Shown in pieces: positions 42,651 to 57,859 of a stretch of DNA of 64,000 nucleotides. The notes beneath the pieces are model-generated. The model was not told where the DNA came from and ran no database searches. It worked only from the letters and a program-made list of their open reading frames with translations. Numbering within the stretch: position 1 is the first letter of the stretch; each line of letters begins with the position of its first letter. The DNA is taken from NCBI RefSeq assembly GCF_039645985.1, contig NZ_CP147919.1, positions 1,922,001 through 1,986,000 of the forward strand, in the 5' to 3' direction. This DNA is from Sulfurimonas sp. HSL3-7 (GTDB lineage: Bacteria; Campylobacterota; Campylobacteria; Campylobacterales; Sulfurimonadaceae). The position numbers and the translations under genes were made by a program.

Positions 42651-42674
42651 GATTAAGTGGCTCCGGATACTGGA
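42651..42674 (+). mobile_element. Left attachment site (attL) of the tRNA-Asn island
   Basis: This 24-bp stretch repeats 57778-57801 with one mismatch and contains the last 17 bases of tRNA-Asn including its encoded CCA (TGGCTCCGGATACTGGA on this strand). Similarity stops at once outside. It is the displaced tRNA 3' end expected at the far side of a tRNA-integrated element. Confidence 0.9.
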
Positions 42675-42752
42675 AACCATTTTTAAAACCTCTATATACC
42701 ATCAAATGCCCTATGTATCGAAGTTTTCAAAGTTAAAAGATTGTCAAAAAAA

Positions 42753-42817
42753 GGTGTCTTTTGGGTCATAAATAGCACCAAATGGACACCGACAATCTAT
42801 AAATGTCCATAGGTGTC
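42753..42817. promoter_or_regulatory. Three GACACC motifs inside the left end of the island
   Basis: GGTGTC at 42753-42758, GACACC at 42785-42790 and GGTGTC at 42812-42817 lie 80-145 bp inside attL. Two more (57715-57720 and 57726-57731) lie just inside attR. The context AAAAGACACC and TTGACACC recurs on both sides, as expected for integrase arm-type sites; the right-hand pair is also coding, so chance is possible. Confidence 0.35.
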
Positions 42818-42868
42818 AAACGAGGCGCAGCATACGGCATCATTTTTTATTTTAGGTCTTCGCATATA

Positions 42869-43285
42869 CTAAATTTTGTAAGTATTGTTTACTGGGACTA
42901 ACTTTTCAGGCATTGTAATAAATACTGCCATCATCATGTTTGAAGGGGGCAGATCATTAATGTAAGAAATAGCGAACAGTGTATCTATCTCATCATCCAA
43001 GTCTTGTTGTATTGTGTCCATAATGCTAATGACATTAGACATGTCGTAGTCGCTCGTAATCCTGAAATGACATAACATGCCCTTTAAGTTATGATTAAAT
43101 GCTTGAACTCTTTCGTGGAATGCTGGAACTAAAGAAGTGGAAACACTAAATTCCATCGTGTATATTTTAGATACATCACTAGTTATAGTATCAATATCAT
43201 CTACATCAAACTGAATGTTGTTTGGGTTATCACTTGTGAGTGTTTGTAATTCGAATAAAAGTTCTTGTTTTGATATGCGTCTCAT
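42869..43285 (-). CDS. Unknown protein with an FtsZ C-terminal-like domain
   Basis: A 138-residue protein of unknown role. From about residue 65 the pattern KGMLCHFRITSDYDMSNVIS, IMDTIQQDLDDEIDTLFAIS and SNMMMAVFITMP follows the layout of the FtsZ/tubulin C-terminal domain (G.l.nit...l..v......I......a....G.........v.vi.tg). No GTPase half is present. Such a piece could bind or mimic FtsZ, as some phage and toxin proteins do; this is inference. It follows an LRR gene by 10 bp and probably forms a two-gene unit with it. It is the leftmost gene of the island. Confidence 0.45.
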   Translation of the reverse strand: MRRISKQELLFELQTLTSDNPNNIQFDVDDIDTITSDVSKIYTMEFSVSTSLVPAFHERVQAFNHNLKGMLCHFRITSDYDMSNVISIMDTIQQDLDDEIDTLFAISYINDLPPSNMMMAVFITMPEKLVPVNNTYKI

Positions 43286-43295
43286 TTTAGCTTCT

Positions 43296-43667
43296 TCATT
43301 TATTTGATTTCGATCTGTTCCATGCCCGGTTTATAGTCAACCGCCTTGGCAAAGAATTAGGTATCTCGATAATATGATTCCATGAAATATCTAAACTGGT
43401 AAGTGATTCTAATGTAAAGACCTGCGGTGGGAATACTTCGAACCTGTTGTGTGAAAGATCGAGATGTTTTAGCTCTGTCAAGCGACTCAAAGCATCTGGT
43501 AAACAACTTAGCTCTTTATAGGAAAGATCTAAAGTCTGCAAGTTCATGACGACTTGAAGAGGATTCTTTTCTAAATGCTGTAGCTCGTATATCTGATGAG
43601 CTGCAGCAAAGTCTATAAGCTCTGCAACCCATGAGAAATTTTCAGTCTGTGTTATTACATCCATCAC
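43296..43667 (-). CDS. Short leucine-rich-repeat protein
   Basis: The 123-residue protein has three or four LRR units of the LxxLxLSxNxLxxLP type: NLQTLDLSYKELSCLPDAL, ELKHLDLSHNRFEVFPPQVF and SLTSLDISWNHIIEIPNSL. No signal peptide is seen, so it should be an intracellular protein-interaction module. It is immediately upstream of, and probably co-transcribed with, the FtsZ-C-like gene. Cytoplasmic LRR proteins of this size are rare in Campylobacterota, and its location in a defence island makes a sensor role possible. Confidence 0.8.
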   Translation of the reverse strand: MMDVITQTENFSWVAELIDFAAAHQIYELQHLEKNPLQVVMNLQTLDLSYKELSCLPDALSRLTELKHLDLSHNRFEVFPPQVFTLESLTSLDISWNHIIEIPNSLPRRLTINRAWNRSKSNK

Positions 43668-43768
43668 GTACTTCTAGTGTTAAGTTACCTGAAGTATATA
43701 AGTCTATAGCGACAACATCATGTCTGGTTTTATTAATCGCTACTATGTAGAACTTGTCTACACTACAT

Positions 43769-44656
43769 TTATTGAAGTATCTCGTTCATTGCTGTCTTGA
43801 TATTATTGACATGGTTTTTAAATTCTTCCAACAAAGTTTCTTTATCCACATCTGCATTAAAGTTAATATTGTCAATATAAAAACAATCTAGAAGCTCATC
43901 ATTATCAGCATATTTATAAAATGTATATTTTCCTGATTTTCTGATTTTTTCCATCACCAATTTATCTTCAGAATATATTTGAAACATTAATGGTACTTTT
44001 TCGACTTCCCAAATTTCATAATCCACTCCAAACCATATTTTATATTTAGCATTGACATCAAAGTAATCGTTTAACGAGACTCCATAATATTCATCTTCAT
44101 CTTCAATTTCCATTGTTGTGACATCTGCTATGAGTTCAACTATTTTATAGTTTGCATACTTCTCCCAAAAATATTTACTATCTAAAACTGCTGCAAGTCT
44201 TCTGTAGTTGCCTTCATTGTGAATCATGTATCTACCATCAATAAAATCATCATGCGCACTTTGAATATTTGAAGAGTTGTACGCAGGTTTATGCGCGTTA
44301 ATCAGTAGTATTTCAGCCTTATCAATTAATTTTTTACTTAATATCTCGTCTTTTGACAATTTATTTAAATCACTCATAATTGTTCCAAGATATATTTGCA
44401 CATTTTCAGCATCACTCCCATTTTCAATAACCCATCTATTTTTTAGTCGAGATCTGAAACCCTTTTTACCTTTTGTTCTGCCAATATATACCAGTACGTT
44501 ATCTCCATACAGAGGATGACAACCATAAATTTGGTAAAGGCCAATATCACTTGCTTTAACTTCATACTTTTTAGAATCAATCCCATCTTTTTGGAGGATT
44601 TGTTCTATCGAAAATGGGCCTTCCCACAATACTTTTATCTCTTCTCTTTCAATCAT
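43769..44656 (-). CDS. GIY-YIG nuclease-like protein
   Basis: The 295-residue protein has a GIY-YIG fold in its first half: IGLYQIYGCHP and VLVYIGRTKGKKGF, then SRLKNRW (catalytic Arg region), a conserved Glu in DKAEILLINAHKPAYN and the terminal Asn of that motif. The second half (from about residue 160) is acidic and of unknown fold. GIY-YIG proteins cut DNA and occur in restriction enzymes and homing endonucleases. Its start lies 8 bp inside the end of the WYL regulator gene, so the two are a coupled pair. There is no methylase partner, so specificity may come from the C-terminal domain or from a signal. Confidence 0.75.
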   Translation of the reverse strand: MIEREEIKVLWEGPFSIEQILQKDGIDSKKYEVKASDIGLYQIYGCHPLYGDNVLVYIGRTKGKKGFRSRLKNRWVIENGSDAENVQIYLGTIMSDLNKLSKDEILSKKLIDKAEILLINAHKPAYNSSNIQSAHDDFIDGRYMIHNEGNYRRLAAVLDSKYFWEKYANYKIVELIADVTTMEIEDEDEYYGVSLNDYFDVNAKYKIWFGVDYEIWEVEKVPLMFQIYSEDKLVMEKIRKSGKYTFYKYADNDELLDCFYIDNINFNADVDKETLLEEFKNHVNNIKTAMNEILQ

Positions 44657-45572
44657 CGTTGTTCCCTTTAATATATAATTTCAACTCTTGTTTAATGATG
44701 TCATCAATCCATAATGGTTCAATAATTCTAAGATGTGGAAGCCAATATTGAATGATCGGGATGATCTCCATCTCATAGGTAATGGTAACTACAAACTCCA
44801 GGGAACCATCTGAATGAGTGCTGATTATACGTTGTGTAGACAATGGCTTACGGTTAAAGTATTTAGCAACTTTTGCGTCGGCATATATGGTTACATCAAA
44901 GGGCTCTCTGTCTGACTGGAACCATATATTTATAGAATTCTCAAGAAGAGTTTCGATCTTAGTTGATGGTGAAAAAGAATCTCTGGTAACAATGACATTA
45001 CTCACTTTTTTGAGATAGAGTTTGCGAACATATTCATCTTCATCAAGAGCAACCAGATACCAAAATCCCTCATAATTAACAATCTTTAGAGGTTTCAAAC
45101 ATTCTCGCCTAGGAGGCTCTTTTTCGTCATCATAGATACAAGTTATGATCTGTTTATTATTTATAGCCTGTTCGAGTTTTTGGATCTCGTTAAATTTATC
45201 ACTAATATCTTCTATATTGAGTTTAGTATAAATAGGGTTGAACTCTTCATTTTTAATTTTTGAAAGAAGACTGTGTGCCGTTGTATAAAAGTTGCCACCG
45301 ATATCCTCTGCCATCTTCTCCATAATATCAAGCACTAACTGTTCCTGAACAGTCTTGGTCTTTTCAACTCTAAAGCCCTTTTGCATCTTCCATTTTTTCT
45401 TCTCTTGGTAGATTGGAAAACTGCAGAGCTTTTCATTAAAGTCACGTTGTATCGTCTTAGTAGATACATTGTACTCATCTGCCAACTCTTTGACAGATAA
45501 AGCTTCACCGCTGTTAAGACGTGAAAGCGTTCTAGTTAAGCGTGTTAGAATTTTGTCATATTCATGATCCAT
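44649..45572 (-). CDS. WYL-domain transcriptional regulator
   Basis: The 307-residue protein has an N-terminal DeoR/HTH_11-type winged helix (ALSVKELADEYNVSTKTIQR) and a central WYL domain (about residues 155-225: RECLKPLKIVNYEGFWYLVA), followed by a C-terminal WCX-like region. WYL regulators of this build (BrxR/CapW-like) control phage-defence islands and respond to nucleic acid or nucleotide ligands. It is coupled to the GIY-YIG gene and faces the DUF1173-like gene across a 267-bp divergent spacer that contains paired TTGCAAC motifs. Confidence 0.88.
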   Translation of the reverse strand: MDHEYDKILTRLTRTLSRLNSGEALSVKELADEYNVSTKTIQRDFNEKLCSFPIYQEKKKWKMQKGFRVEKTKTVQEQLVLDIMEKMAEDIGGNFYTTAHSLLSKIKNEEFNPIYTKLNIEDISDKFNEIQKLEQAINNKQIITCIYDDEKEPPRRECLKPLKIVNYEGFWYLVALDEDEYVRKLYLKKVSNVIVTRDSFSPSTKIETLLENSINIWFQSDREPFDVTIYADAKVAKYFNRKPLSTQRIISTHSDGSLEFVVTITYEMEIIPIIQYWLPHLRIIEPLWIDDIIKQELKLYIKGNNDD

Positions 45573-45672
45573 AGCAGCCCTTTAGAATATTGTAGCTTTT
45601 AATGAATTATAAATAATGAACCGGACAGCATAATGTCCGGATTGTTTGTAATCTATTGTTTTTATATTGCGT

Positions 45673-45697
45673 TTTAACTACTTCACTCCGCAAAGTT
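45673..45697 (+). repeat. Left member of a 25-bp inverted repeat inside the island
   Basis: This sequence occurs in inverted orientation at 55481-55505 with one mismatch. It has internal dyad symmetry (ACTTC/GCAAAGT around CTCC) and is followed by a T-rich run. The pair encloses the module from the DUF1173-like gene to hsdR. Confidence 0.6.
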
Positions 45698-45703
45698 TTT
45701 ATT

Positions 45704-45733
45704 TTGCAACTACAGAACTTGAAATTGCAACCA
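45704..45733. promoter_or_regulatory. Paired TTGCAAC motifs, 21 bp apart
   Basis: TTGCAAC occurs at 45704 and again at 45725 (here extended to TTGCAACCA). The same pair with the same 21-bp spacing is found upstream of the Xis-like gene (56112 and 56133). It is a candidate operator for a regulator of the island, perhaps the WYL protein. Confidence 0.45.
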
Positions 45734-45839
45734 TTTTTATCTCTGGAACAAGCTTTAGATTTTTATACTTGACTTAGAAAAATATATAACTCTTAGTATA
45801 CGGATGTACTCGTAACCAGTTTTATATAAAAGGATATTT

Positions 45840-47045
45840 ATGTCAACACAATTAGTACCTATTATCTCAGATGAGAACAACAAACCTAAAAAACTTTGGA
45901 GTGAGGCGTTTCATTTATCAAGCATAACTGACAAAGATTCGAAGCAGTTCCAGCACTTCTTAAAAAAGATGAAAAATAATGAAAATGTCAAACACTTAAT
46001 TTGCGGATGTCATCAAGATAACCCTGTTCAAATATCTATAAAACGTAATATTAGTAAAGAACATGATAAGAATGAAACTTTTCATATTGCTCATTTTCCA
46101 AAACAAGGAAACGACCATACAAGTTCATGTGATTTGAGCGATGACAAACCGGATTATCATGTGAACGAATATAATAAAATTGAAAGGGTACGTGAGTGTT
46201 TATTTGATGAACCGAAGAATTATATTAAAAAGGAGAACTTATCTAAAGCTCAGACAAGGAAACAGCATAGAAAGGCGAGAAAAAACTTTAGAGGAGTGGT
46301 AGAGGGGATGCTAGCACAAGCATACACTCATGCCTTTAATAGTGCGAATATACAGAAAAACAGACTTGACAGCCAAAGAATGACTAATGTAACGATCTCC
46401 GCTTTGTTAAAACGTTTTGATGAGACCCTAAGTTCAATAAAGTTCGGTCGTTCTTCAAAAGAGCAGTATCAGCAGAAAAAAAATGTTCAATTTAAGTATG
46501 GATTAACACATGAAAACTTACCTACGGTTAATAACAAATTAGACACTATCCAAACGGTAACTCTGGAGGGTATTCAATATGATATTGTTCCTAAAAATTT
46601 GCGTTACATGCATAATTGTGCAAGGATCAAAAAAAACACAGTTACAGCACCATACTTTTATTTTGTAGTTATAAAAAACAATGAGGTGGTTCGAGGGTTT
46701 ATTTATCCAATTGTCATACATGACAATCTAATAGCAACCGTAGAAAGTGGATTGGAACGTGAAAAGGTTTTGTCACTCTTACAAGCGGGTAAAGTCATTT
46801 ATAAACCGATTACTACAAATCTAATCGCATCGGCACTTACCAATAAAGGCGAATTAGCCAAAAAGTTTTTTAAATACAATAAAAACAACTATAGACCAGA
46901 TGTAATCATTTTCGATAAAAATAAAATTAGAGTAAGTGAGATTCATGGAAATATGGGCAAAGATTATGAATTTGATTTCAGATCGAAGTTTGAACGATTT
47001 TACAGTAAATTTGATACAACTATTTTTGAATTTTTACAGATGTAA
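45840..47045 (+). CDS. DUF1173-like protein
   Basis: A 401-residue protein of unknown role. It has an N-terminal putative zinc or Cys-His element (HLICGCHQDNP, FHIAHFPKQGNDHTSSC) and a C-terminal domain ending in a nuclease- or restriction-like region (RPDVIIFDKNKIRVSEIHGN, then MGKDYEFDFRSKFERF). This order (CxC, then H..P..G..H...C, then a late E[VI][HY]GM-type motif) resembles DUF1173 proteins found on integrative elements. AAGGAT precedes the ATG. It is the only plus-strand gene in the defence part and is divergent from the WYL regulator. Confidence 0.5.
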   Translation: MSTQLVPIISDENNKPKKLWSEAFHLSSITDKDSKQFQHFLKKMKNNENVKHLICGCHQDNPVQISIKRNISKEHDKNETFHIAHFPKQGNDHTSSCDLSDDKPDYHVNEYNKIERVRECLFDEPKNYIKKENLSKAQTRKQHRKARKNFRGVVEGMLAQAYTHAFNSANIQKNRLDSQRMTNVTISALLKRFDETLSSIKFGRSSKEQYQQKKNVQFKYGLTHENLPTVNNKLDTIQTVTLEGIQYDIVPKNLRYMHNCARIKKNTVTAPYFYFVVIKNNEVVRGFIYPIVIHDNLIATVESGLEREKVLSLLQAGKVIYKPITTNLIASALTNKGELAKKFFKYNKNNYRPDVIIFDKNKIRVSEIHGNMGKDYEFDFRSKFERFYSKFDTTIFEFLQM

Positions 47046-47131
47046 ATTTCAACTGCGAAGCAACTAGGCATATTGGAATTTTTATGTCAGTCCACTATTG
47101 GCATATCCCTTTTGATGAGAATATCTAATCT

Positions 47132-47602
47132 TTACTCTTTGTATTGTGTTCGCAATGGTTTAAGTGATTTTAGCTGTTGGAGGTCATTGTGAATGACATC
47201 TAGCACTTGTTCAAGGTTTGTTTCATTTTCTTCTTCTTTGAACGTCCAAACAGCAGCTTTTTTCTCGTCACCTTCCAGGTTGTTGTAATGCCCGGCAACT
47301 TCGTTTTCCAATTTAAAATGGTGGCGCAAAGAATGAACAGCCAGCTTAAGATCATGTGAGGCGTAAAAACTTTTTTTGGTGATTAGCTCTATGATGGTGT
47401 AAGCATAATCGTATTGTCTTGCAGGATTTCCACTGTTTTCTATGTTCATCAAAAACTCTTCGTTTATGATGGTGTCGAGGGGAATGTAGAGTTCTTTTAA
47501 CTGTTCTCTCGCAAATGTCTCTTTGTCACTGTTTCGAACGTGCAGACGTTGTAAAATGTAGGAGATAGCTGCACCTGCTAAAAGCCACAAAAGCTTTTCC
47601 AT
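47132..47602 (-). CDS. Unknown membrane-anchored protein after hsdS
   Basis: A 156-residue protein with one N-terminal membrane segment (LLWLLAGAAISYILQRL) and a charged, helical cytoplasmic or periplasmic domain (REQLKELYIPLDTIINEEFL). It directly abuts the hsdS stop codon (next base), so it is the last gene of the restriction-modification operon. No domain was recognised. A role at the membrane in DNA entry surveillance would be speculative. Confidence 0.6.
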   Translation of the reverse strand: MEKLLWLLAGAAISYILQRLHVRNSDKETFAREQLKELYIPLDTIINEEFLMNIENSGNPARQYDYAYTIIELITKKSFYASHDLKLAVHSLRHHFKLENEVAGHYNNLEGDEKKAAVWTFKEEENETNLEQVLDVIHNDLQQLKSLKPLRTQYKE

Positions 47603-48841
47603 TCACAGTTCCCCTCTAAACGCCTGATCCAAAATAGAAGCTTTTAATGCTTTGAGAGCACCCATTTTATCTTTTTGAACAGATTTAATTTTTTCTATTT
47701 TTTGAGATACTTCATCTAAATACTTAACAATTTTTTGTTGAATCTGTAGAGGTGGTAGTGGTAATTCCAATGTCTTTATAAAATCTAATTTTACACCTTT
47801 TACAGTTGCACCAGTTCCATTATTAATAAGATATTCTTTAATATTTTTAAAATAGTTAAACAAAAACCTAATATTCACTTTATCATTTAAAGGCAATAAG
47901 CCTTTTAAATCTTGATTTATAGCTGTATCATGTTCCAAATAACAGACTTTACCTAATCCAACTCTCGTAGCAATAATAATTGCTTCTTTTGGAATAATAT
48001 TTGATGAACTTTCTTCTAATCCCTTTTCAGTAATTGATAATTCTGTTTTTTTAATTGTTTCTACATTCATATCACCAACCGTAGCCCAGTTAATGTTTCC
48101 ATTGTCCCAATATACTTTTTTATTTTTTGATGGTGTCCCACCCCCAATAATCTTTACTGTATTACCTAATTGATCTTTATCATACTTCTCTTCCAACTCC
48201 CCAAAAACATCATTCAAAACACTTCCCATAAACAGATCCGCTTCATCCATGTTTTTTTGATGCAGGGCTATGGATTTATCTATTTTTTCAAAGAGCAGAT
48301 CGAGTTTAGAAACTAATCTTTGTTGTTCTGAAATTGGTGGGAGTGGCAAGTCAACAGATAATATTTGTTGTTTTCCTATATTGATTTGCAAACCGCCACC
48401 CCCCAAAGATTTGTAATAATCTTTTATTTGATGGGCTGTTAAGATATATCTTAAATATTTAACAACAACTTTCTCTAAATTAAAATCATACAATTTACCA
48501 ACCCTCTGATTTAGCATAAATGTTCTACCATTTAAATTTGATACTAATGTAGGGTTCCCTAATATTCTCATCTCAGATGCCAAATCAGTCATTGCAATAA
48601 TTAAGTCACCCTCGCTAAGAATGTAGTTTGGTAACTCAATAGCGTATTTATTGGGTAGATATTTTATTTTATGTTCTGCATCAAATTCACCATTAGGACG
48701 GATATTCCCCATCCTTATTATCACGGTATCAGACTTTTCTACATACTCTTTGGCTTTGAATGCATAACCATTCAATAAGTTGCAAACAGCACCTAATTTA
48801 GTCCACTCCCATCCTTCAGGAAGTTCATACAACTCATTCAT
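47603..48841 (-). CDS. hsdS: Type I restriction-modification specificity subunit
   Basis: The 412-residue protein has two target-recognition domains. The first opens LPEGWEWTKLGAVCNLLNGY and the second IIGGGTPSKNKKVYWDNGNI; each ends in a conserved helix (LPPISEQQRLVSKLDLLFEK and LPPLQIQQKIVKYLDEVSQK). It determines the bipartite DNA target of the methylase and nuclease complex. Its start overlaps the hsdM stop by 8 bp. Both domains look complete. Confidence 0.95.
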   Translation of the reverse strand: MNELYELPEGWEWTKLGAVCNLLNGYAFKAKEYVEKSDTVIIRMGNIRPNGEFDAEHKIKYLPNKYAIELPNYILSEGDLIIAMTDLASEMRILGNPTLVSNLNGRTFMLNQRVGKLYDFNLEKVVVKYLRYILTAHQIKDYYKSLGGGGLQINIGKQQILSVDLPLPPISEQQRLVSKLDLLFEKIDKSIALHQKNMDEADLFMGSVLNDVFGELEEKYDKDQLGNTVKIIGGGTPSKNKKVYWDNGNINWATVGDMNVETIKKTELSITEKGLEESSSNIIPKEAIIIATRVGLGKVCYLEHDTAINQDLKGLLPLNDKVNIRFLFNYFKNIKEYLINNGTGATVKGVKLDFIKTLELPLPPLQIQQKIVKYLDEVSQKIEKIKSVQKDKMGALKALKASILDQAFRGEL

Positions 48842-50321
48842 TGATATCTTTACCTATTAAGATAGCTTCAATCTGATCCATCAATGCATTTATTTCGACG
48901 TTATTGAGTTTGATGTTCTCAACCAACTCAATCGGTGATTTATGTTCTATTGTTTCAACGTTGTTCGGGTTTTTAGCCGATATATCGAACTCTTTAATGT
49001 CGTTGACATTGACTATCCATGAGTTCTCTGTCAGTGTTCTATTTTCCCATACATTTAAAAACTCTTTGAAGTGCTCGTACTGGATCGGCTTGTTCTTTGT
49101 GAGTTTGTATGGTGGGTTTACTTCATAGTAAAAGATGTCAGAAGTAGAACCGTTTCTGTCAAAGAAGATGACGTTTGTTTTAACACCGCTGTACGGTAAA
49201 AATATACCTGCCGGAAGTGAAAGGATGGTGTGAACATTAAAACGCTCTAAAAGCTCTTTTTTGACCGACTGGAAGGCATTATTGGTTTGAAACAGAACAC
49301 CCTCCGGAATAACCACGCCACATCTGCCGTTTAGTTTCAAGTAGTTCATCATATGTTGTAAAAACAGCAACTCTGTAGCATTGGACTTAACGGGGAAGTT
49401 TTGCTGGATGCTGTCGTTCTCTTTTCCACCAAACGGAGGATTGGCAAGGATGCAATCAAAACGATCTTTCTCCTCCAGTCCCCGAATGTCTTTGGTAAGT
49501 GTATTCATTTTTGAGATGTTAGGCGACTCTACTCCATGCAGGATCATGTTCATGACACCCATGACATAAGAGAGAGGCGTTTTTTCGTTTCCAAAAAAGG
49601 TATCTTCATTTAAAAACTTCAGCTGCGAAGTTGATAGCTCTCTCTGCTTTTTCTTTTCAAAATCTTCATATCGAATATGATGATAAGCCTCTATAAGGAA
49701 TCCACACGAGCCTGAAGCAGGATCATAAACAGTTTGACCGATTTGAGGATTGACAACATCGGCGATCACTTTGATGAGTGGACGAGGTGTATAAAACTCA
49801 CCACTGTTGCCTCCATCACTGCCCATATCTTTCAAAAGTTTTTCATAGACAAGTGAAAGTTGAAAAAGATCTGCCTGGTTATGGAAGTCCATAACATCAA
49901 TGATGTCCAGAACCTCTCTAAGAGTATGCCCATTAGCGATGCGGTTGTCCAAAAATTCAAAGATGGCACCGATTTTGTATTTAATGGACTTTGGGTCTTC
50001 CGTAATCGATTTGAAGCCTTTAAGGTAGGGAAATAGCTTCTTATTTGTAAACTCCAAAAGGTCTTCACCACTCTTGGCATTGATAAGATCGATCTTCCCA
50101 TCTTTTTTAGGACAAGCCCAGTTCCCCCATTTGAATTCATCATCAAGTATGTACGTATAATCTTGCCCATTAAGAAGTGCTTCGTCAGCTTTTGAATCTT
50201 CCAAGTCACTGAGGAATTTTAAGAAGAGTACCCATGAGATCTGTTCGGTGTACATCATCGCACCGCTGATGCCGTCGTCACGACGAAGAATGTCTGTTAT
50301 TCTGTTTATTTTGCTTTCCAA
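48834..50321 (-). CDS. hsdM: Type I restriction-modification methyltransferase subunit
   Basis: The 495-residue N6-adenine methylase has an N-terminal HsdM helical domain, the SAM-binding motif YDPASGSCGFLIEAYHH and the catalytic NPPF in CILANPPFGGKENDS. It methylates the target set by HsdS. The start codon is TTG with AAAGG upstream; no better ATG fits the conserved N-terminus (ESKINRITDILRRDDGISGA). It lies at the end of the operon begun by hsdR, with the GHKL-STAS-PIN triad in between and about 106 bp of spacer before it, so it may have its own promoter. Confidence 0.95.
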   Translation of the reverse strand: MESKINRITDILRRDDGISGAMMYTEQISWVLFLKFLSDLEDSKADEALLNGQDYTYILDDEFKWGNWACPKKDGKIDLINAKSGEDLLEFTNKKLFPYLKGFKSITEDPKSIKYKIGAIFEFLDNRIANGHTLREVLDIIDVMDFHNQADLFQLSLVYEKLLKDMGSDGGNSGEFYTPRPLIKVIADVVNPQIGQTVYDPASGSCGFLIEAYHHIRYEDFEKKKQRELSTSQLKFLNEDTFFGNEKTPLSYVMGVMNMILHGVESPNISKMNTLTKDIRGLEEKDRFDCILANPPFGGKENDSIQQNFPVKSNATELLFLQHMMNYLKLNGRCGVVIPEGVLFQTNNAFQSVKKELLERFNVHTILSLPAGIFLPYSGVKTNVIFFDRNGSTSDIFYYEVNPPYKLTKNKPIQYEHFKEFLNVWENRTLTENSWIVNVNDIKEFDISAKNPNNVETIEHKSPIELVENIKLNNVEINALMDQIEAILIGKDINE

Positions 50322-50427
50322 GCTTTGCCTTTAGAATAACTATTAAAAATTTACTAATAGATTTACAGCTATTCACTACATTTTATTTTCGATTGAATTT
50401 ATTATGAAAAGTGTATATTGATTTAAA

Positions 50428-50970
50428 TCAACAAATATCTCGATGACAACTTAGGATATCAATATCAATATCTTTAAAATCGGTATCATTTGTTAATAAT
50501 ACGAATTGATTTTCATCACATATCTTCACAATAGCCTTGTCAGAAAAATCTAAAGTATCTACTGTACACATTAAAGTTAAGTCATGTATTGAATAACTTT
50601 TTTCTACTACTTCAAACTCACGAAATATATCTTCAGTTACAGTTAAATATATATCTTCTAAAGCCTTTTGCCCATCTTCACTATTTCTATATTTTTTATA
50701 TGGCCATTCTTCTTCAATAAGGGTATAGCTTTCTAGGTAATTTTTATATTCAATCTTAATAGCTCTATTTATAAATTCTGATATAACGATGAAGTCTAAT
50801 ACAAATTTACTATCTTGAGCATTTAATTTTGAATATAATCTAGCATATTTTTCTTCCCAAGAAGAGGAAGTACTTGCCCAAAAAAGATATATCAAAACAT
50901 TCGCATCAAAAAAAATTTTTTTATCACTAATATTTCTTATATTTGATGGGTTATATCTATTCGCCATCAT
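50428..50970 (-). CDS. PIN-domain nuclease
   Basis: A PIN-fold protein of about 180 residues with KIFFDANVLIYLF (first acidic residue), FIVISEFINRAIK (Glu), DTLDFSDKAIVKIC (Asp) and FVLLTNDTDFKDI (final Asp). PIN proteins are RNases, mostly toxins, but this one has no small antitoxin; its partners are the STAS-like and ATPase genes. The frame overlaps the end of the STAS-like gene. The ATG at 50970 is chosen because AGGTG sits just upstream; the next ATG and a GTG at 50976 are alternatives. Confidence 0.82.
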   Translation of the reverse strand: MMANRYNPSNIRNISDKKIFFDANVLIYLFWASTSSSWEEKYARLYSKLNAQDSKFVLDFIVISEFINRAIKIEYKNYLESYTLIEEEWPYKKYRNSEDGQKALEDIYLTVTEDIFREFEVVEKSYSIHDLTLMCTVDTLDFSDKAIVKICDENQFVLLTNDTDFKDIDIDILSCHRDIC

Positions 50971-51316
50971 CTTCACCTAAAATTTCTTTAATGGATTCTT
51001 TCATTTTGTCAGGATTACTAAAATAGTTTTTTGCATTTGTTACAACCCTTTTGAGCCTAACCTTACCACTTTCAGATAGGTTTTCTACCGATAAACTATC
51101 TTTTAATTTAGCTTCTTCAAATTCTCCATAAAGCTTTCCTATAGCATTATTTAAAAAGGCCGTTGTTAGTTTTTCAACATTTTTAAAATTAATTATAGTT
51201 TTTTTATTTTCTACTAAAGCCTTTTTTATAGTTTGATAAACTTTATCTCCATCTTCAGGCAAGGTACAATCTTTTTGCCCAACAATGCTGAAAACATTTA
51301 TTTTCATTTCATCCAT
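50957..51316 (-). CDS. STAS-like domain protein (DUF4325 type)
   Basis: The 119-residue protein is a single alpha/beta domain with KALVENKKTIINFKNVEKLT, TTAFLNNAIGKLYGEF and SGKVRLKRVVTNAKNYF, the pattern of STAS-like DUF4325 proteins. In other systems STAS domains pair with serine-kinase or GHKL ATPases as in anti-sigma/anti-anti-sigma switches. Here it follows a GHKL ATPase by 9 bp and overlaps the PIN gene, suggesting a switch that senses a signal and controls the nuclease. Confidence 0.78.
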   Translation of the reverse strand: MDEMKINVFSIVGQKDCTLPEDGDKVYQTIKKALVENKKTIINFKNVEKLTTAFLNNAIGKLYGEFEEAKLKDSLSVENLSESGKVRLKRVVTNAKNYFSNPDKMKESIKEILGEDDGE

Positions 51317-51325
51317 AATAGTCCC

Positions 51326-52198
51326 TTAAAATATATCATTTATATCTATCTCTTCAACTTCACTTAGAAGACGATATGTTTTATTGTCATCTGTTTTAAA
51401 TGTCATGCTAATTACTGAACCCTGAAAAAAACTGTCTAATTCTTGTATTGTCTCACTACCGTTACTAAGTTCATACAAGGCATTTCCACTAATAATTTGT
51501 ATTTTACCCTTATTTTGCGTAATAAACTCTTGAAGTAAAGCGAGTCCTAAACCTCCAGAAACACCTTGTTTAGTTGTATTCCCGTCTATCATAGCCCATT
51601 TAATGGCATCCTTAGAAGTGATAACTTCTTTTAAGTTTTTCTCAATCCTTTTTGCAAAACCTATTCCTGTATCCACAATAGTAAAATTAATTTTGTCCTG
51701 CATGTGAAAATATTGTCCACAAGTGTATATAAACTCTGTTTCACTATGAATTTGAGCATTGACAAACATTTCTTGAATAGACTCACTGATTTTTTCATGC
51801 ACAGCATCACTCATCTTCGGTAAACCACTTCTTTTTAGCAAGTCATCTTCTAAATACTGGTTAAAATATCTACTATCAGACGGTTTTAATTTTTTATACT
51901 CAATCGTACTATGATATGTATCGTAAATTTTATCATATCCGTAAAATGCAAGAAAACCATTTTTTTGTAAAATTGTTTGAATATCATTCTTAATGCTTAT
52001 AAATACTATATCATTGATCCCACCATTTTCTATTTTATCAAGTATGCCACCTAAAACAGCACAGAGATTTGCATCAAACCATTGAGTCAGTTCTATTTCA
52101 ATATTTTCAAAAAAATCATCCTTATATTTATCATAAAGCTTTATCAGTTGATTATACCCATCTAAATCGTTATGTACATTTGATAATATGAAACTCAT
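51326..52198 (-). CDS. GHKL-type ATPase with an N-terminal STAS-like region
   Basis: The 290-residue protein has a GHKL ATP-binding domain in its second half: N-box ESIQEMFVNAQIHSE, G1 FTIVDTGIGFAKRI and G2 GVSGGLGLALLQEFI, then GSVISMTFK. The first 120 residues (IEIELTQWFDANLCAVLGGI, INDIVFISIKNDIQ) look like a divergent STAS-like fold. There is no histidine phosphorylation site or receiver, so it is not a typical sensor kinase. Its ATG overlaps the stop of an hsdR 3' remnant. It forms a tight operon with the STAS-like and PIN genes. Confidence 0.78.
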   Translation of the reverse strand: MSFILSNVHNDLDGYNQLIKLYDKYKDDFFENIEIELTQWFDANLCAVLGGILDKIENGGINDIVFISIKNDIQTILQKNGFLAFYGYDKIYDTYHSTIEYKKLKPSDSRYFNQYLEDDLLKRSGLPKMSDAVHEKISESIQEMFVNAQIHSETEFIYTCGQYFHMQDKINFTIVDTGIGFAKRIEKNLKEVITSKDAIKWAMIDGNTTKQGVSGGLGLALLQEFITQNKGKIQIISGNALYELSNGSETIQELDSFFQGSVISMTFKTDDNKTYRLLSEVEEIDINDIF

Positions 52199-52287
52199 TT
52201 ATATATCTCCCTTTGCAGCTCAAAATACTCATCTCGCATCTGAGGTATACCACCAAAATTATTAGCCACTTCTCGCACTGTTCCCAT
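52195..52287 (-). pseudogene. Duplicated 3' end of hsdR (93-bp scar)
   Basis: The 93 bp encode GTVREVANNFGGIPQMRDEY and the rest of an HsdR C-terminus, ending REIYK and a TGA that overlaps the ATPase start (ATGA). The intact hsdR end at 52986-53078 differs at about 10 of 93 bases and has the same overlap with the gene that follows it. The remnant starts exactly at an internal Met codon. It shows that the ATPase gene once directly followed an hsdR allele, and that the unknown gene at 52366 was inserted with a new hsdR end. Confidence 0.88.
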
Positions 52288-52365
52288 TCTGCTTTCAATT
52301 TAATATAGAAATAAATACTTGGCTCTGCCTTTTCTAAGTTTTTTTGCCATAATACTTCATTTACA

Positions 52366-52989
52366 TCAGTTAGTAATTTTTTCTTCTAGTTCACAGAAGT
52401 TCAATCCATATCTTTTTTCTATTAGTTCGATTGTTTTCAATATTGCTTTACTTATATGTAACTGGTTTGCACCAAAAGGATAATATGCAGAATAGAGTTC
52501 ATTAGCATTCATACTATTATTTAAATAATGTGTTTTTGGTTGTTTTTCATTATTTTTGTAATAATAAAATGGATATTTAAATTCTCTTCCTTCATCTAGC
52601 CATTGCCCCCAGCTTCCGTAGTTTTGGATGTGTCCATTATAGCATTGACCACCAATAGTACTTTCCAATAAGATAAATAATTGTTTCAGTTTATCTATTT
52701 TTTGATTTCGTTCATATACTGATAACCTTTGAGTGACTTCTTCGAGTTGTTCAGTATAACTATTGCCCACATTATCTGCCAAATTTTTATATTCTTCAAT
52801 TATTTTATCTGGTACACTATCACACTGTAGTGTCTGTAACTGATTATATGCATTAATTTCTTCATCAATTAATGCTTGGATTTCTTCGTCTGCCTCTTCT
52901 TGTGTATACCCACAATTTACTAGAAATGAGTTTTCTTCTTTAGTTTGTTTTACAATCTTGTCCAACACTATTTTTGGTACATTCTTCAT
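52366..52989 (-). CDS. Unknown protein coupled to hsdR
   Basis: A 207-residue protein with no recognised domain. The N-terminal half is helical and acidic (QEEADEEIQALIDEEINAYN, YTEQLEEVTQRLSVYERNQK, likely coiled coil). The second half has an aromatic and Gly-rich segment (GGQCYNGHIQNYGSWGQWLD) and ends with a helix (ISKAILKTIELIEKRYGLNF). The start overlaps the hsdR stop (ATGA), so translation is coupled. It is the gene newly placed at the hsdR 3' end, between the true end and the 93-bp scar, and may be an exchangeable defence or regulatory accessory. Confidence 0.65.
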   Translation of the reverse strand: MKNVPKIVLDKIVKQTKEENSFLVNCGYTQEEADEEIQALIDEEINAYNQLQTLQCDSVPDKIIEEYKNLADNVGNSYTEQLEEVTQRLSVYERNQKIDKLKQLFILLESTIGGQCYNGHIQNYGSWGQWLDEGREFKYPFYYYKNNEKQPKTHYLNNSMNANELYSAYYPFGANQLHISKAILKTIELIEKRYGLNFCELEEKITN

Positions 52990-55334
52990 TTGTATATCTC
53001 CTTTTGTAATCCAAAATACTCATCCCGCATCTGTGGTATACCACCAAAGTTATTAGCTACTTCTCGCACTGTTCCCATGCCACTTAGATCAACAAGATTG
53101 CCGAGTTTATCTTCGTCGAGCTCTTTGACACCGTCTTTTTTGTACCTGTTTAAAATGAACTCTAAAAACTCTTTGGCCTTTTCGTTATGGATCTTTTCAA
53201 AGAAGTCGCCATGCTCCACAGAGAAGACCCGTTCGCTTCTCGTTTTTATGTCGAGGTTAAATGACAAGTGTGCCAGTACGTCGTAGATGTCGCTCTCTTC
53301 TGCCTCAAAGATGGTTTTTAGATCCTCTAGCTGGGATTCGTCGATATTCATCTCTCTAAGCTTGTCAAGCAAATCCTTCCTGTTGGTTGGGTTGCTCCAT
53401 ATCTCTCTTAGCCCTTCTTCGTTGTTGTAGAACTTGCCGAGTACGCCGATGAGCAGTTCTAGGTAATCTTCTGTTTTGAGAGGGATGCCGTCAACACCCA
53501 CATAGGTTGTTTCTATGTTGATGACTTTGAGTTTCTTGCCTTTGATGTCGATGGTGACTATGTTGCTGCCATAAGTGGGCTGCGTTTCACCTACCGTGTC
53601 GTCACCGGGTTCGGGTGTCGGATACTCGGGTTTATCTTTCGGCTCTTTCGGTTCTCTTTTTCCACTCCCAATAGAAGGTTCATCTTCTCCATCCCAGGCC
53701 GGATCATAAAAGAGGTTCGTTGCACCGACAAAGTCCATGATTGTAAAGAAGTCTTTTCCTTCAAACACCCTCGTGCCACGACCGATGATCTGCTTGAATT
53801 CGGTCATGGACTTTATGGGCGCCGTCAGAACAACGTTTCTAACATTTTTGGCATCAACGCCCGTTGTCAGCATTTTGGAGCTTGTGAGGATCGTAGGAAT
53901 GTCTCTGTCGTTGTTTTGAAACATCTCCAAAAAGTCTCGGCCTATGTCTCCCTCGTCCGAAGTGACCCGTACACAGTAGTTATTATCTTTGATGGTTTTA
54001 AACTTGTCGATAGCGATTTTCATGTCCGAAGCATGTTGCTGATTCACACAGAAGATTATCGTTTTGTCCATCGGGTTCATGTTTTCTAGAATCGTTTTCG
54101 CGATGAGCTCGGTGCGTTTCGGAATGACGACCTGTTTCTCGAATTTCTCCAGCTCTACTATCTGTTTGTCCAGCTCACCTGTAATGATGTCGTTCGGATC
54201 AAACCGATATTCGTCTATGTTTGTCTGGATTCTCTTGACTTTGTAAGGTGTCAAGAAACCGTCGTTAATACCGTCTTTGAGAGAATATTCATAGATTGGA
54301 TCGCCGAAGTATTTGTAAGTATCGCCGTTGTCATCTCTTTTCGGTGTTGCGGTAAGTCCTAAATGCACAGCACTGCCAAAATGATCTAAAATAGCTCGCC
54401 AGCTACTCTCATCGTTAGCGCTACCTCTATGACATTCGTCAATGATGACAAGGTCGAAAAAGTTGGACGGATACTGCTTGTAGTAAGCGGTCACATCGTC
54501 CTCTTGCTCTTCTTCGGAAGTCTCTATCACTCTGTTTTTGTTCTCTGCAATGGACTGGTAGATCGCAAAAAAGATGTTTCCAGCCGTAGGAACTTTTCCA
54601 CCCCGTTTTTTGATGTTCTTTCCGTTTATCTCGACACAATCTTTTTCAAGAGGGTTGAACGTATTGATAGACTGATCTTTAAGTACGTTTCTGTCAGCTA
54701 AGAAAAGTATCTTGGGTCTTCTGTCGGCATTATCCCTGTTCCATTTGGATTGAAACAGTCTGTAGGCAATTTGAAAAGCGATGTAGGTTTTGCCTGTCCC
54801 CGTTGCAAGCGTTAGAAGCACCCTGTCCGCACTGTTTGCAATGGCTTCTATGGTTTTTTGAACCGCAATTTGCTGATAGAAACGAGGTTTCATCGTTCCT
54901 TCAATGTGGAAAGGGTGGGTAATGACTTCTTGTACTTTTGGCGTTGGTCTGCCGTACTTTCTCTCAAAGAGCTCATCAGGCGTCGGATAGTCCTCGATGT
55001 ATCTTCCATTGCCGTCTTTCAGTGAATGCTCATAGATCTTATGACCGTTGGTAGTATAGACATAATCAATGCGAAGACGTTCGGCATAGTTGATGGATTG
55101 TTGCAGGCCGTCCAGCGGGTCTCTGTTTTCGGCTTTTGCTTCGATGATGGCAAGGTTGGTGTTCTTGTAGGTCAGTAGGTAATCGACAAAATATCGCTTA
55201 CCACGCTTACCGCCGATGAGCTTTCGGCCATCCGTGAAATAGTACTCCCTAACGATATGTGCTTCATTCCACCCGCTACCTTTGATTTTCGGGTCGATAA
55301 GTTTTGAACGTGTGTCTGATTCAGAGTATGCCAT
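52986..55334 (-). CDS. hsdR: Type I restriction endonuclease subunit
   Basis: The 782-residue protein has an N-terminal PD-(D/E)xK nuclease region (VDYLLTYKNTNLAIIEAKAE), a DEAD-like translocase with Walker A LLTLATGTGKTYIAFQIAY and Walker B FFDLVIIDECHRGSANDESS, and the helicase motifs TATPKRDD and GIDAKN-like TGVDAKNVRNV. The C-terminal third (from about residue 600) is of the EcoEI_R_C type. This length fits the EcoEI-like group, shorter than EcoKI HsdR. It cuts unmodified DNA after translocation. It is the first gene of the defence operon. Confidence 0.95.
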   Translation of the reverse strand: MAYSESDTRSKLIDPKIKGSGWNEAHIVREYYFTDGRKLIGGKRGKRYFVDYLLTYKNTNLAIIEAKAENRDPLDGLQQSINYAERLRIDYVYTTNGHKIYEHSLKDGNGRYIEDYPTPDELFERKYGRPTPKVQEVITHPFHIEGTMKPRFYQQIAVQKTIEAIANSADRVLLTLATGTGKTYIAFQIAYRLFQSKWNRDNADRRPKILFLADRNVLKDQSINTFNPLEKDCVEINGKNIKKRGGKVPTAGNIFFAIYQSIAENKNRVIETSEEEQEDDVTAYYKQYPSNFFDLVIIDECHRGSANDESSWRAILDHFGSAVHLGLTATPKRDDNGDTYKYFGDPIYEYSLKDGINDGFLTPYKVKRIQTNIDEYRFDPNDIITGELDKQIVELEKFEKQVVIPKRTELIAKTILENMNPMDKTIIFCVNQQHASDMKIAIDKFKTIKDNNYCVRVTSDEGDIGRDFLEMFQNNDRDIPTILTSSKMLTTGVDAKNVRNVVLTAPIKSMTEFKQIIGRGTRVFEGKDFFTIMDFVGATNLFYDPAWDGEDEPSIGSGKREPKEPKDKPEYPTPEPGDDTVGETQPTYGSNIVTIDIKGKKLKVINIETTYVGVDGIPLKTEDYLELLIGVLGKFYNNEEGLREIWSNPTNRKDLLDKLREMNIDESQLEDLKTIFEAEESDIYDVLAHLSFNLDIKTRSERVFSVEHGDFFEKIHNEKAKEFLEFILNRYKKDGVKELDEDKLGNLVDLSGMGTVREVANNFGGIPQMRDEYFGLQKEIYK

Positions 55335-55370
55335 CTATGTAACTAAACCTAATGAATTATATTTCGATCT

Positions 55371-55376
55371 ATTATA
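55371..55376 (-). promoter_or_regulatory. Candidate -10 box upstream of hsdR
   Basis: TATAAT on the minus strand, 37 bp before the hsdR start, in an AT-rich context. No convincing -35 was found. Confidence 0.4.
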
Positions 55377-55480
55377 GCTTGTGTTCTTTAATCGACTTCA
55401 GGTCGCGGTTGAGTTAGGTACATTTCATTAACTTTTTTATTGATCACTGAAAGTCAGGTATGAAATTAAATAATCCATTG

Positions 55481-55505
55481 AACTTTGCGGAGCGAAGTAG
55501 TTAAA
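55481..55505 (-). repeat. Right member of the 25-bp inverted repeat
   Basis: Reverse complement of 45673-45697 with one mismatch. It lies 147 bp upstream of hsdR. Confidence 0.6.
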
Positions 55506-55826
55506 GCTTGCCAATCTAAAAATCTCTGATTTTTCGGTGGGCTATACCTGATTGTCTTGCTAAATCGAGGGGATATTACCCCAAAAAACGACTAATGTCC
55601 TTCAAACCCCTAAAAGTTGGGCTTTAAACGATGCTAGCAGACGGATTGCTTCCGTAAGCATGATCGGGGTAAAAATGGATATACCCAAAAAAATGGGTGT
55701 ATCCCAACAAAGCCCTGAAAACAGGACTATAAAGCTGGTAAAAACCACTAAAATCGGGCATTTGCAAATCGTATCCCTTTCACGGTTTGGAGATATACCC
55801 CGAAAAATTCGCACAAGTCTGTGTCT
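55506..55826. other. Gap between hsdR and the GATACA array
   Basis: No gene is supported. The stretch has several short complementary pieces such as ATACCCA/TGGGTGTAT around 55681-55702 and repeated 'ACCCC/GGGGT' motifs, which may form local hairpins. Open frames here on the minus strand are continuations of the repeat array and are not called. Confidence 0.4.
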
Positions 55827-56080
55827 GATACATTCTGATATATAATTGATACATTGCTGATAACACGCCGATACACAATTGATACATATCTGATACATTG
55901 GCGCAACATATTGATACATTTGCGATACATGATGAGAACATATTGATACATTGCTGATAACACGCCGATACACAATTGATACATATCTGATACATTGGCG
56001 CAACATGTTGATACATTTGCGATACATGATGAGAACATATTGATACATTCCTGATACATCAATTGATACACTTTGATACA
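55827..56080 (+). repeat. Helically phased iteron-like array of 17 GATACA motifs, with a 97-bp tandem repeat
   Basis: GATACA starts at 55827, 55848, 55870, 55881, 55892, 55913, 55924, 55945, 55967, 55978, 55989, 56010, 56021, 56042, 56053, 56065 and 56075. All gaps are 10-12 or 21-22 bp, so the motifs sit on one face of the helix with a unit of about 10.8 bp; several missing places hold weaker versions (GATAAC, GAACAT). Units 55851-55947 and 55948-56044 are a 97-bp tandem repeat differing at one base. It lies 120 bp upstream of the Xis-like gene. It resembles plasmid iterons, ParR-type centromeres or cooperative Xis filaments. Confidence 0.9.
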
Positions 56081-56111
56081 TGCTAATGCATGATGTCATT
56101 GTTCATTTCGT

Positions 56112-56142
56112 TTGCAACCAACGATTTTTTAAATGCAACCAA
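56112..56142 (+). promoter_or_regulatory. Paired TGCAACCA motifs upstream of the Xis-like gene
   Basis: TTGCAACCA at 56112 and ATGCAACCAA at 56133 are 21 bp apart, like the pair at 45704/45725. They lie 58-88 bp before the Xis-like start and could be an operator of that gene. Confidence 0.45.
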
Positions 56143-56199
56143 AATTATGTTTCATCGAATATGAACTCTTTCATAATGTTCTGACAAAAGGAGCAAATC

Positions 56200-56523
56200 A
56201 TGAAAGTAGATTTCGAAGTACTTGAACAGATTCCCAAACTTTTGGAAGTCATGCTTCAGGTCAAAAGCACCCTTGAAACCAACAGTACTGAAAAACGTTG
56301 GCTGAACACAAAAGAGTTGGCGGAGTACACCGGCTATAAACTGGAAACCATTAAAGCCAAGATCAAAAAAAATGACTTTGTACTGGGTACTCATTATTAT
56401 AAGCGCGAAGGCAAACTGCTCTTTGACAAGAGTGAAGTAGATAACTGGGTAATGGGAATAGATTCTGTCAATAACAGTACCTATACCAAGATCGATGCTT
56501 TGTTCGAAGAAGTCTTGGGATAA
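56200..56523 (+). CDS. Xis/AlpA-like helix-turn-helix protein
   Basis: The 107-residue protein has a MerR/excisionase-type winged helix (about residues 33-85): RWLNTKELAEYTGYKLETIK and LLFDKSEVDNWVMG. Such proteins act as excisionases or as regulators of the neighbouring integrase. A short N-terminal helix (EVLEQIPKLLEVMLQ) may dimerise it. AAAGGAG precedes the ATG. It sits between the GATACA array and the integrase, so the array is a natural candidate for its binding region. Confidence 0.82.
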   Translation: MKVDFEVLEQIPKLLEVMLQVKSTLETNSTEKRWLNTKELAEYTGYKLETIKAKIKKNDFVLGTHYYKREGKLLFDKSEVDNWVMGIDSVNNSTYTKIDALFEEVLG

Positions 56524-56619
56524 CGCCATGACATCTTTTACATACAGTTTACACAACACATTCTATAATGTGAATGTGAAAACTTCGTATATAGGGTTCT
56601 TGAATAAAGGATCGAATAT

Positions 56620-57753
56620 ATGAAACTGTATGTAAAAAAAGTCAAAAATGTAAAAGGCGAAGTCAAAGAGACTCTTTGGGTCAGGTTTTATGATCACCAT
56701 AGAAAGCTGATCCGCAAGCCTCTGAAACTTTCCAACACAAAGGCCAATAGAAAATTGGCAGAGACACAACTGATTCCACAATTGATGCTCAAGCTTCACA
56801 GTGGAGAGTTCTTTAATAAAACAGCACCAACACTTAACGAGTACATGCGTACCTCTTTCGAGATGAACAAGTCTCGAAGACGTGCCACTACGCAAAACGA
56901 TTATCAGATATCGTACGATAAACATATCGAACCGCATCTGGGTCATATGAAACTTGATAAGATCAAAGCCTCCGATCTGGAGCTTTGGCAGAACAAGGTT
57001 TTGGAAAGTGTCTCGCCAAGGCGTCTGAAGAATATCAGAGCTGTTCTTAGCGGTATACTAAATGATGCTTATCGTGATGAGCTGATTTCCAAAAACCCGC
57101 TCACCTTGGTCAAGACGATTAAGGCTGAGAAAGTTGAGATTCATCCTTTTTCCCTCTCGGAGATTTCAGAGATATTGGAGAATTCGGAAGGTCAGGACAG
57201 GAACTTCTTTGCTCTGGCCTTTTTCACCGGGATGCGCAGCGGTGAGATGATCGGTTTGAAGTGGTGTGACATCGATTTCAAGAAGATGGAGATCCATATC
57301 CAGCGCTCACGAAAAATGGGTGTTAATACGCCTCCTAAGACCGAATCGAGCAACAGGGTGATAGATATACTGGACTCACTCTATGTTTACCTTCAGAGCC
57401 AATACAAGCTCACTGGAGATAAAAACTCGTATGTCTTCTTGAATGAAGGTGATGAACCGATATATGACATCAAACGAATTCGAGATCGAGCTTGGAAAAA
57501 GACGCTTAAAGTATGTGAATTGGAGTATCGTCCTATCTATCATACACGTCATACCTTTGCAACAGTGATGTTGGAGAATGGTGAGGATATACTCTGGGTG
57601 TCAAACATGTTAGGGCATACGGATTCGACAATGACACTGAGTCGTTATGCTCGTTATGTGAAGAGAAAAGAGAGAAAAAGAGGTCAGTTTTTACAGCAAG
57701 AACTGGCACTAAAAGACACCGAATTGACACCGAGTAATAATTATGTTGCTTGA
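56620..57753 (+). CDS. Tyrosine recombinase / integrase of the island
   Basis: The 377-residue protein has an N-terminal arm-binding-like region, a SAM-like core-binding domain (NDYQISYDKHIEPHLGHMKL) and a catalytic domain. The catalytic residues are Arg in FFTGMRSGEMIGLKW, His-x-x-Arg in YHTRHTFATVML, His in MLGHTDSTMTLS and the nucleophilic Tyr in SRYARYVK. It should integrate and excise the element at tRNA-Asn, 32 bp away. Two GACACC motifs lie in its last codons. The start at 56620 follows AAAGGATCG. Confidence 0.95.
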   Translation: MKLYVKKVKNVKGEVKETLWVRFYDHHRKLIRKPLKLSNTKANRKLAETQLIPQLMLKLHSGEFFNKTAPTLNEYMRTSFEMNKSRRRATTQNDYQISYDKHIEPHLGHMKLDKIKASDLELWQNKVLESVSPRRLKNIRAVLSGILNDAYRDELISKNPLTLVKTIKAEKVEIHPFSLSEISEILENSEGQDRNFFALAFFTGMRSGEMIGLKWCDIDFKKMEIHIQRSRKMGVNTPPKTESSNRVIDILDSLYVYLQSQYKLTGDKNSYVFLNEGDEPIYDIKRIRDRAWKKTLKVCELEYRPIYHTRHTFATVMLENGEDILWVSNMLGHTDSTMTLSRYARYVKRKERKRGQFLQQELALKDTELTPSNNYVA

Positions 57754-57777
57754 AAGTGTTTGTTTTAGGGGTTGATT

Positions 57778-57801
57778 GATTGAGTGGCTCCGGATACTGG
57801 A
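57778..57801 (+). mobile_element. Right attachment site (attR) overlapping tRNA-Asn
   Basis: 24 bp matching 42651-42674 with one mismatch; the last 17 bases are the 3' end of tRNA-Asn with CCA. Because the tRNA stays intact, the island inserted downstream of the tRNA's 3' end. Confidence 0.9.
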
Positions 57802-57859
57802 TTCGAACCAGTGACCAAATGATTAACAGTCATCTACTCTACCGCTGAGCTAATCCGGA
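57785..57859 (-). tRNA. tRNA-Asn (GTT)
   Basis: A 75-nt tRNA with encoded CCA. The acceptor stem is TCCGGAT/ATCCGGA, the anticodon loop CTGTTAA reads GTT and the T-arm contains GGTTCGAATCC. It is the integration site of the island. Confidence 0.97.

Follow-up and report, generated by a model that had tools for sequence, protein, structure and literature searches.

We analysed a stretch of 64,000 nucleotides from Sulfurimonas sp. HSL3-7 (contig NZ_CP147919.1), hereafter called the window. It carries three minus-strand genes, termed vapK, vapS and vapC for reasons given below, that lie within a type I restriction-modification (RM) operon in the order hsdR, ORF207, a duplicated hsdR tail, vapKSC, hsdM, hsdS and ORF156 (Table 1). 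The original prediction described a triad of overlapping or near-overlapping genes for an ATPase, a STAS-like protein and a PIN nuclease between hsdR and hsdM, and both the open reading frames and their placement were confirmed. That prediction overlooked ORF207, the second hsdR 3′ end and the integrative island that encloses the operon. The triad is transcribed from vapK through vapS to vapC, with 9 nt separating vapK from vapS. The vapS and vapC frames overlap by 20 nt, or by 14 nt if vapC begins at the ATG at position 50970, and the vapC of one homologous locus (L039) begins at the equivalent of this codon.

Table 1. Features of the vapKSC locus and its surroundings, in window coordinates.
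Feature	Coordinates	Strand	Description
Left attachment repeat AGTGGCTCCGGATACTGGA	42656-42674	.	19-nt direct repeat, identical to the tRNA-Asn 3′ end
Island gene	43769-44656	-	295 aa; no function assigned
Island WYL-domain regulator	44649-45572		
Island gene	45840-47045	+	401 aa; sub-threshold DUF1173 match only
ORF156	47132-47602		156 aa; zero gap after hsdS; N-terminal hydrophobic stretch; no family match
hsdS	47603-48841	-	Specificity subunit of the type I system; 8-nt overlap with hsdM; homologous to HsdS-type loci
hsdM	48834-50321	-	Type I methyltransferase subunit; TTG start; N6-adenine methylase motifs
vapC	50428-50976	-	RNase toxin with a PIN domain; probable start codon ATG 50970; catalytic residues D24, E67, D143, D164
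vapS	50957-51316	-	119 aa; STAS-like (DUF4325) antitoxin; candidate phospho-acceptor T52; C-terminal tail
vapK	51326-52198	-	290 aa; N-terminal STAS domain and GHKL serine/threonine-kinase domain
Duplicated hsdR 3′ end	52195-52294	-	Direct repeat, 87% identical to 52986-53085
ORF207	52366-52989	-	207 aa; second embedded cargo gene; 4-nt overlap with hsdR
hsdR	52986-55334	-	Type I restriction subunit; PADLOC REase_I, 4e-156
Excisionase-like gene	56200-56523		Island right end
Tyrosine integrase	56620-57753	+	PHROG integrase, 6e-68
Right attachment repeat	57783-57801	.	3′ end of tRNA-Asn (57785-57859)

A Pfam scan assigned vapS to PF14213 (DUF4325, STAS-like; 6e-16) and the PIN domain of vapC to PF01850 (1e-8), whereas the HATPase_c match of vapK (2.7e-5) fell slightly below the cut-off. 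The N, G1 and G2 boxes of the kinase are nonetheless intact, and their residues E143/N147, D176/G178 and G216/G218 are invariant across 33 homologues. VapK was modelled with AlphaFold2 (mean pLDDT 89.9), and the closest structural match of residues 95-272 is SpoIIAB (Z 12.6, 2.8 Å, 134 aligned), which scores above UsfX, RsbW and histidine kinases. The N-terminal half, modelled alone with a pLDDT of 93.6, was matched by VIA-align 2 at residues 1-88 to STAS anti-sigma-factor antagonists (best Z 9.2, 2.1 Å, 86 aligned), and STAS-domain proteins fill the top 25 rows; with Foldseek alone, this region had no significant match to a STAS protein. Based on the model and the structure match, VapK thus opens directly with a STAS domain.

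This combination corresponds to VapKSC, a system published in June 2026 (EMBO J; PMC13373217) that consists of a STAS-GHKL serine/threonine kinase (VapK), a STAS antitoxin (VapS) and a VapC-like PIN toxin (VapC). In the system from Escherichia sp. E4736, VapS neutralises VapC, the C-terminal tail of VapS blocks the toxin, and an S48E substitution abolishes neutralisation; a crystal structure of VapC2S2 has been solved (PDB 9z7o) (PMC13373217). The Escherichia operon protects against phage Bas42 by approximately 2 logs, and this protection is lost with VapC D28A, VapS S48A or VapK F54A (PMC13373217). Activation by single-stranded DNA (ssDNA) was demonstrated for the related kinase CapK and not directly for VapK, whose ssDNA binding could not be shown (PMC13373217).

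When the window VapS was searched with phmmer against PDB sequences, its one strong match was the Escherichia VapS of 9z7o (E = 9e-15, approximately 34% identity), with an alignment that extends to residue 115 and includes the C-terminal tail. Once an 18-residue tag on the PDB chain is allowed for (134 versus 116 residues), T52 aligns with the phosphorylation site S48, and every one of the 33 sequences compared has Thr (19) or Ser (14) in this column. Likewise, a VapC profile built from 36 proteins found Escherichia VapC (9z7o_C, E = 2.7e-13) as its best PDB match. The window residue D24, present in 35 of these 36 sequences, aligns with the catalytic D28, and the acids E67, D143, D146, D164 and D166 are found in all of them. 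In VapK, 29 of 33 sequences have Trp or Phe in the column of W40, the same exchange as that between the aromatic ssDNA-binding residues of Escherichia VapK (F54) and CapK (W68) (PMC13373217), which makes W40 a candidate counterpart of F54.

The identification of the window triad as a VapKSC operon, and thus as a Campylobacterota example of a known system, is therefore well supported. It shares with the E4736 system the gene set and order, the VapS phosphorylation site, the VapC catalytic residues and the STAS-GHKL architecture of the kinase, but differs in being nested in a type I RM operon of a Campylobacterota genome and in being known from sequence. The proposal that an ATPase and a STAS protein form a switch over a PIN RNase gains support because the homologous VapKSC is backed by antitoxin, phospho-mimic and phage-protection data (PMC13373217), and by this homology a phospho-switch through T52 very likely operates here as it does in Escherichia. 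The accompanying remark that the prediction was aware of no characterised system with this gene set is superseded by the same publication.

The nearest regulatory relatives of the pair are CapK and CapS, likewise a GHKL kinase with a STAS substrate that is linked to defence loci and often flanks RM genes (PMC13373217). A corresponding role, in which the window pair would control transcription of the hsd operon, is very improbable: CapK carries a helix-turn-helix (HTH) domain and CapS a winged HTH, and the two control transcription (PMC13373217), whereas the Pfam scan found no HTH in vapK or vapS, VapK lacks one at its N-terminus in the model as well, and the 119-aa VapS contains PF14213 only. 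With these domains missing and a PIN toxin present instead, we rejected transcriptional regulation of this kind. Other identities were also considered and set aside. The partner of the toxin is a STAS/DUF4325 protein rather than a VapB-type DNA-binding antitoxin, as in VapBC, and the nuclease is a PIN protein rather than an ABC-ATPase anticodon nuclease, as in PrrC and RloC. A PADLOC scan of HsdR and of eight cargo and island proteins gave no PrrC match. The 2023 version of PADLOC has no VapKSC model matching the triad, and its sole match for VapK, a weak one to DrmA through the shared GHKL region, was discarded.

The original prediction proposed a search for co-occurrence of the three genes elsewhere and held that rare co-occurrence would count against it. 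Among 397 genomes of the phylum, 31 have a DUF4325 match above the Pfam cut-off, and full triads occur at seven loci in addition to the window. An alignment of close VapK homologues, used as the query in a VapK-only scan of 84,980 species genomes, recovered 29 loci that span Campylobacterota, Bacteroidota, Desulfobacterota-type bacteria, Planctomycetota, Verrucomicrobia, Firmicutes-type metagenome-assembled genomes and Methanosarcinales. At 27 of these 29 loci, vapS and vapC adjoin vapK in the order K-S-C, contrary to the rarity that would have counted against the prediction; the vapK of L074 is split. Prophages and a Deinococcus plasmid carry triads too. Single-protein scans with VapS against genome contigs, and with VapK, Escherichia VapS and ORF207 against viral contigs, returned no relatives. 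Because homologous K-S-C triads recur across many phyla, the arrangement in the window is not a product of chance.

Many of these triads are physically joined to other defence genes. The vapK gene overlaps the stop codon of a type IIG restriction-methylase gene by 4 nt (L039) and hsdS by 4 nt (L073), abuts the Lamassu gene LmuB (L036 and L071, the latter from a Sulfurimonas sp.), and comes after HsdR (L085). In BREX loci, it lies between PglX (with an AAA gene) and BrxHI (L090) or between two PglX genes (L091). At L097 it separates HmaA from HmaB-HmaC, with L096 arranged likewise as judged by gene size, and at L075 LmuB is immediately downstream. One type I operon from Flavobacterium (L079, 3357-11784) unites PrrC, HsdR, an Mrr-type protein and vapKSC; here the PrrC gene lies between hsdS and hsdR, and vapK comes after HsdR and the Mrr-type gene. 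A restriction or other defence gene was found within approximately four genes at no fewer than 13 of the 27 triad loci (L071, L072, L073, L075, L076, L079, L085, L089, L090, L091, L092, L096 and L097), a lower bound from selected scans that shows recurrence rather than enrichment measured against a matched background. No adjoining restriction gene was found for several other triads, among them L035, L080, L086 and L088, and therefore the module does not need restriction.

Published counts place 36% of vapKSC operons within 10 kb of an immune gene (PMC13373217). As far as the main text of that report extends, nesting of vapKSC in restriction-type operons is not mentioned, and its recurrent lodging in type I, IIG, BREX, Hma and Lamassu operons appears to be new. 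The embedding of one defence gene in the locus of another is already known. Like PrrC in EcoprrI and like RloC, vapC encodes an RNase in a type I hsd operon, where those enzymes disable translation as a second line of defence, but they belong to another protein family and are ABC-ATPase tRNA nucleases held by the RM enzyme (PMC2610378). DarTG2 and TgvAB are also second defence systems placed among hsd genes, although they are other effector systems with other insertion points in the hsd order (PMC12255303, PMC11411939). In the same phylum, Campylobacter jejuni carries variable open reading frames (rlo/mlo) between its hsd genes; these differ in gene content, and vapKSC is unreported there in the portion of the source available (PMC5183652).

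These precedents raise an alternative in which contact with HsdRMS restrains VapK or VapSC, and a phage anti-restriction protein, not ssDNA, triggers release. PrrC, itself encoded within hsd operons, is controlled in this manner (PMC2610378), the Flavobacterium operon carries both PrrC and vapKSC, and the module is translationally coupled to restriction genes. However, partners as unrelated as Lamassu, BREX, Hma and type IIG enzymes, or no partner at all, make a specific Hsd contact unlikely, and VapK has its own conserved kinase input. We thus regard this guard arrangement as quite improbable. The suggestion in the original prediction that the RNase module is backed by restriction fits the recurrent embedding in restriction-like operons, whereas functional coupling between the two is our inference.

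The gap between hsdR and hsdM that holds vapKSC was compared among relatives with hsdR genes 68-88% identical to that of the window. Only one (L104, 184 nt) has an empty gap. The others carry a Tmn-like protein (L105), a type II methylase with a GHKL protein (L107), a PD-T4-6-like kinase (L109), an AAA/Toprim-type protein (L110), PDC-S73 (L112), Avs4 (L113), PD-T4-4 (L114) or Fic (L115). The GHKL-type protein of L107 (7930-10452, 841 aa) has no PADLOC family.

The window slot holds two cargoes, ORF207 and vapKSC, with the duplicated hsdR tail between them. As a 93-nt match, this tail is 89% identical to the hsdR end of the window, and no sequence matches it better than this hsdR and those of its relatives; its stop codon shares the sequence ATGA with the vapK start codon. 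In the most parsimonious scenario, vapKSC first lay directly behind hsdR and ORF207 arrived later, bringing a second hsdR end along through recombination in that gene's tail; the duplication would then be a recombination scar that hints at a swap mechanism. The G+C content of the cargo stretch (27-30%, compared with approximately 45% for hsdR and 48% for the flanking core) fits recent acquisition. ORF207 has no Pfam family. Relatives occur on Sinorhizobium and Phyllobacterium plasmids, and on Sinorhizobium plasmids one relative adjoins an MmeI-type methylase operon and another adjoins a type I RM operon; ORF207 is a candidate defence gene without an assigned family. No terminator-like site was found on the minus strand of the operon, a slight hint that vapKSC and the hsd genes may form one transcript, and promoter-like matches were at chance level.

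The entire operon lies between direct repeats of the tRNA-Asn 3′ end. Given these attachment repeats, the tyrosine integrase and the excisionase-like gene, we conclude that positions 42656-57801 constitute a 15.1-kb integrative island at tRNA-Asn. Upstream of hsdR and before the excisionase gene, positions 55827-56060 contain repeats of TTGATACAT/GATACAT units with periods of approximately 32 nt and 97 nt, which could be regulator or integrase sites.

The presence of an integrase and attachment repeats, the toxin-antitoxin nature of VapSC, and the homologues in prophages and plasmids are all compatible with a selfish module that chiefly stabilises the 15-kb island and its RM operon by addiction, with phage defence secondary. 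We consider this unlikely: simple addiction would have no need of a kinase input, the module lies within defence operons of many kinds, and the approximately 2 logs of protection that the Escherichia homologue gives against Bas42 require all three active residues (PMC13373217).

For this locus, the analysis shows which genes and domains vapKSC comprises, which residues are conserved, how the operon is laid out, and that the module recurs and nests in other operons. The reading that we prefer, with a probability of roughly 0.8, is that vapKSC is a cargo of the type I RM operon that encodes a kinase-switched RNase, fired by ssDNA as a backup behind restriction. In the resting cell, VapS would bind VapC and block its RNase activity. 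VapK would sense a DNA-damage signal, which is ssDNA in the published model and might derive, for example, from phage replication or from the processing of restriction-cut DNA. It would then phosphorylate VapS at T52, causing VapS to release VapC, and the freed toxin would cut RNA so that growth and phage production stop. Through its position between hsdR and hsdM, the module may be expressed jointly with restriction and may act as a fallback, whether restriction cuts or fails. For the window locus, we infer the ssDNA trigger, the RNA target and the functional link to restriction.

A broader proposal is that VapKSC serves as a general second-line module of DNA-targeting defences, with ssDNA from restriction or from its failure as the trigger. 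We advance this tentatively and judge the odds to be somewhat against it; in such a scheme, this trigger would explain why the module is recruited repeatedly into operons of the type I, type IIG, BREX, Hma and Lamassu kinds. If true, RNA cutting would follow DNA attack in one coupled circuit.

What the present analysis adds to the published system is that vapKSC is repeatedly built into operons that attack DNA, often in coupling with a restriction gene. Furthermore, the hsdR-hsdM gap emerges as a swap slot for defence genes, including vapKSC, Avs4, Tmn, PD-T4-4, Fic and others. The residence of vapKSC in a restriction operon suggests a testable second line of defence, and it can now be asked by experiment whether restriction itself produces the signal that fires the RNase.
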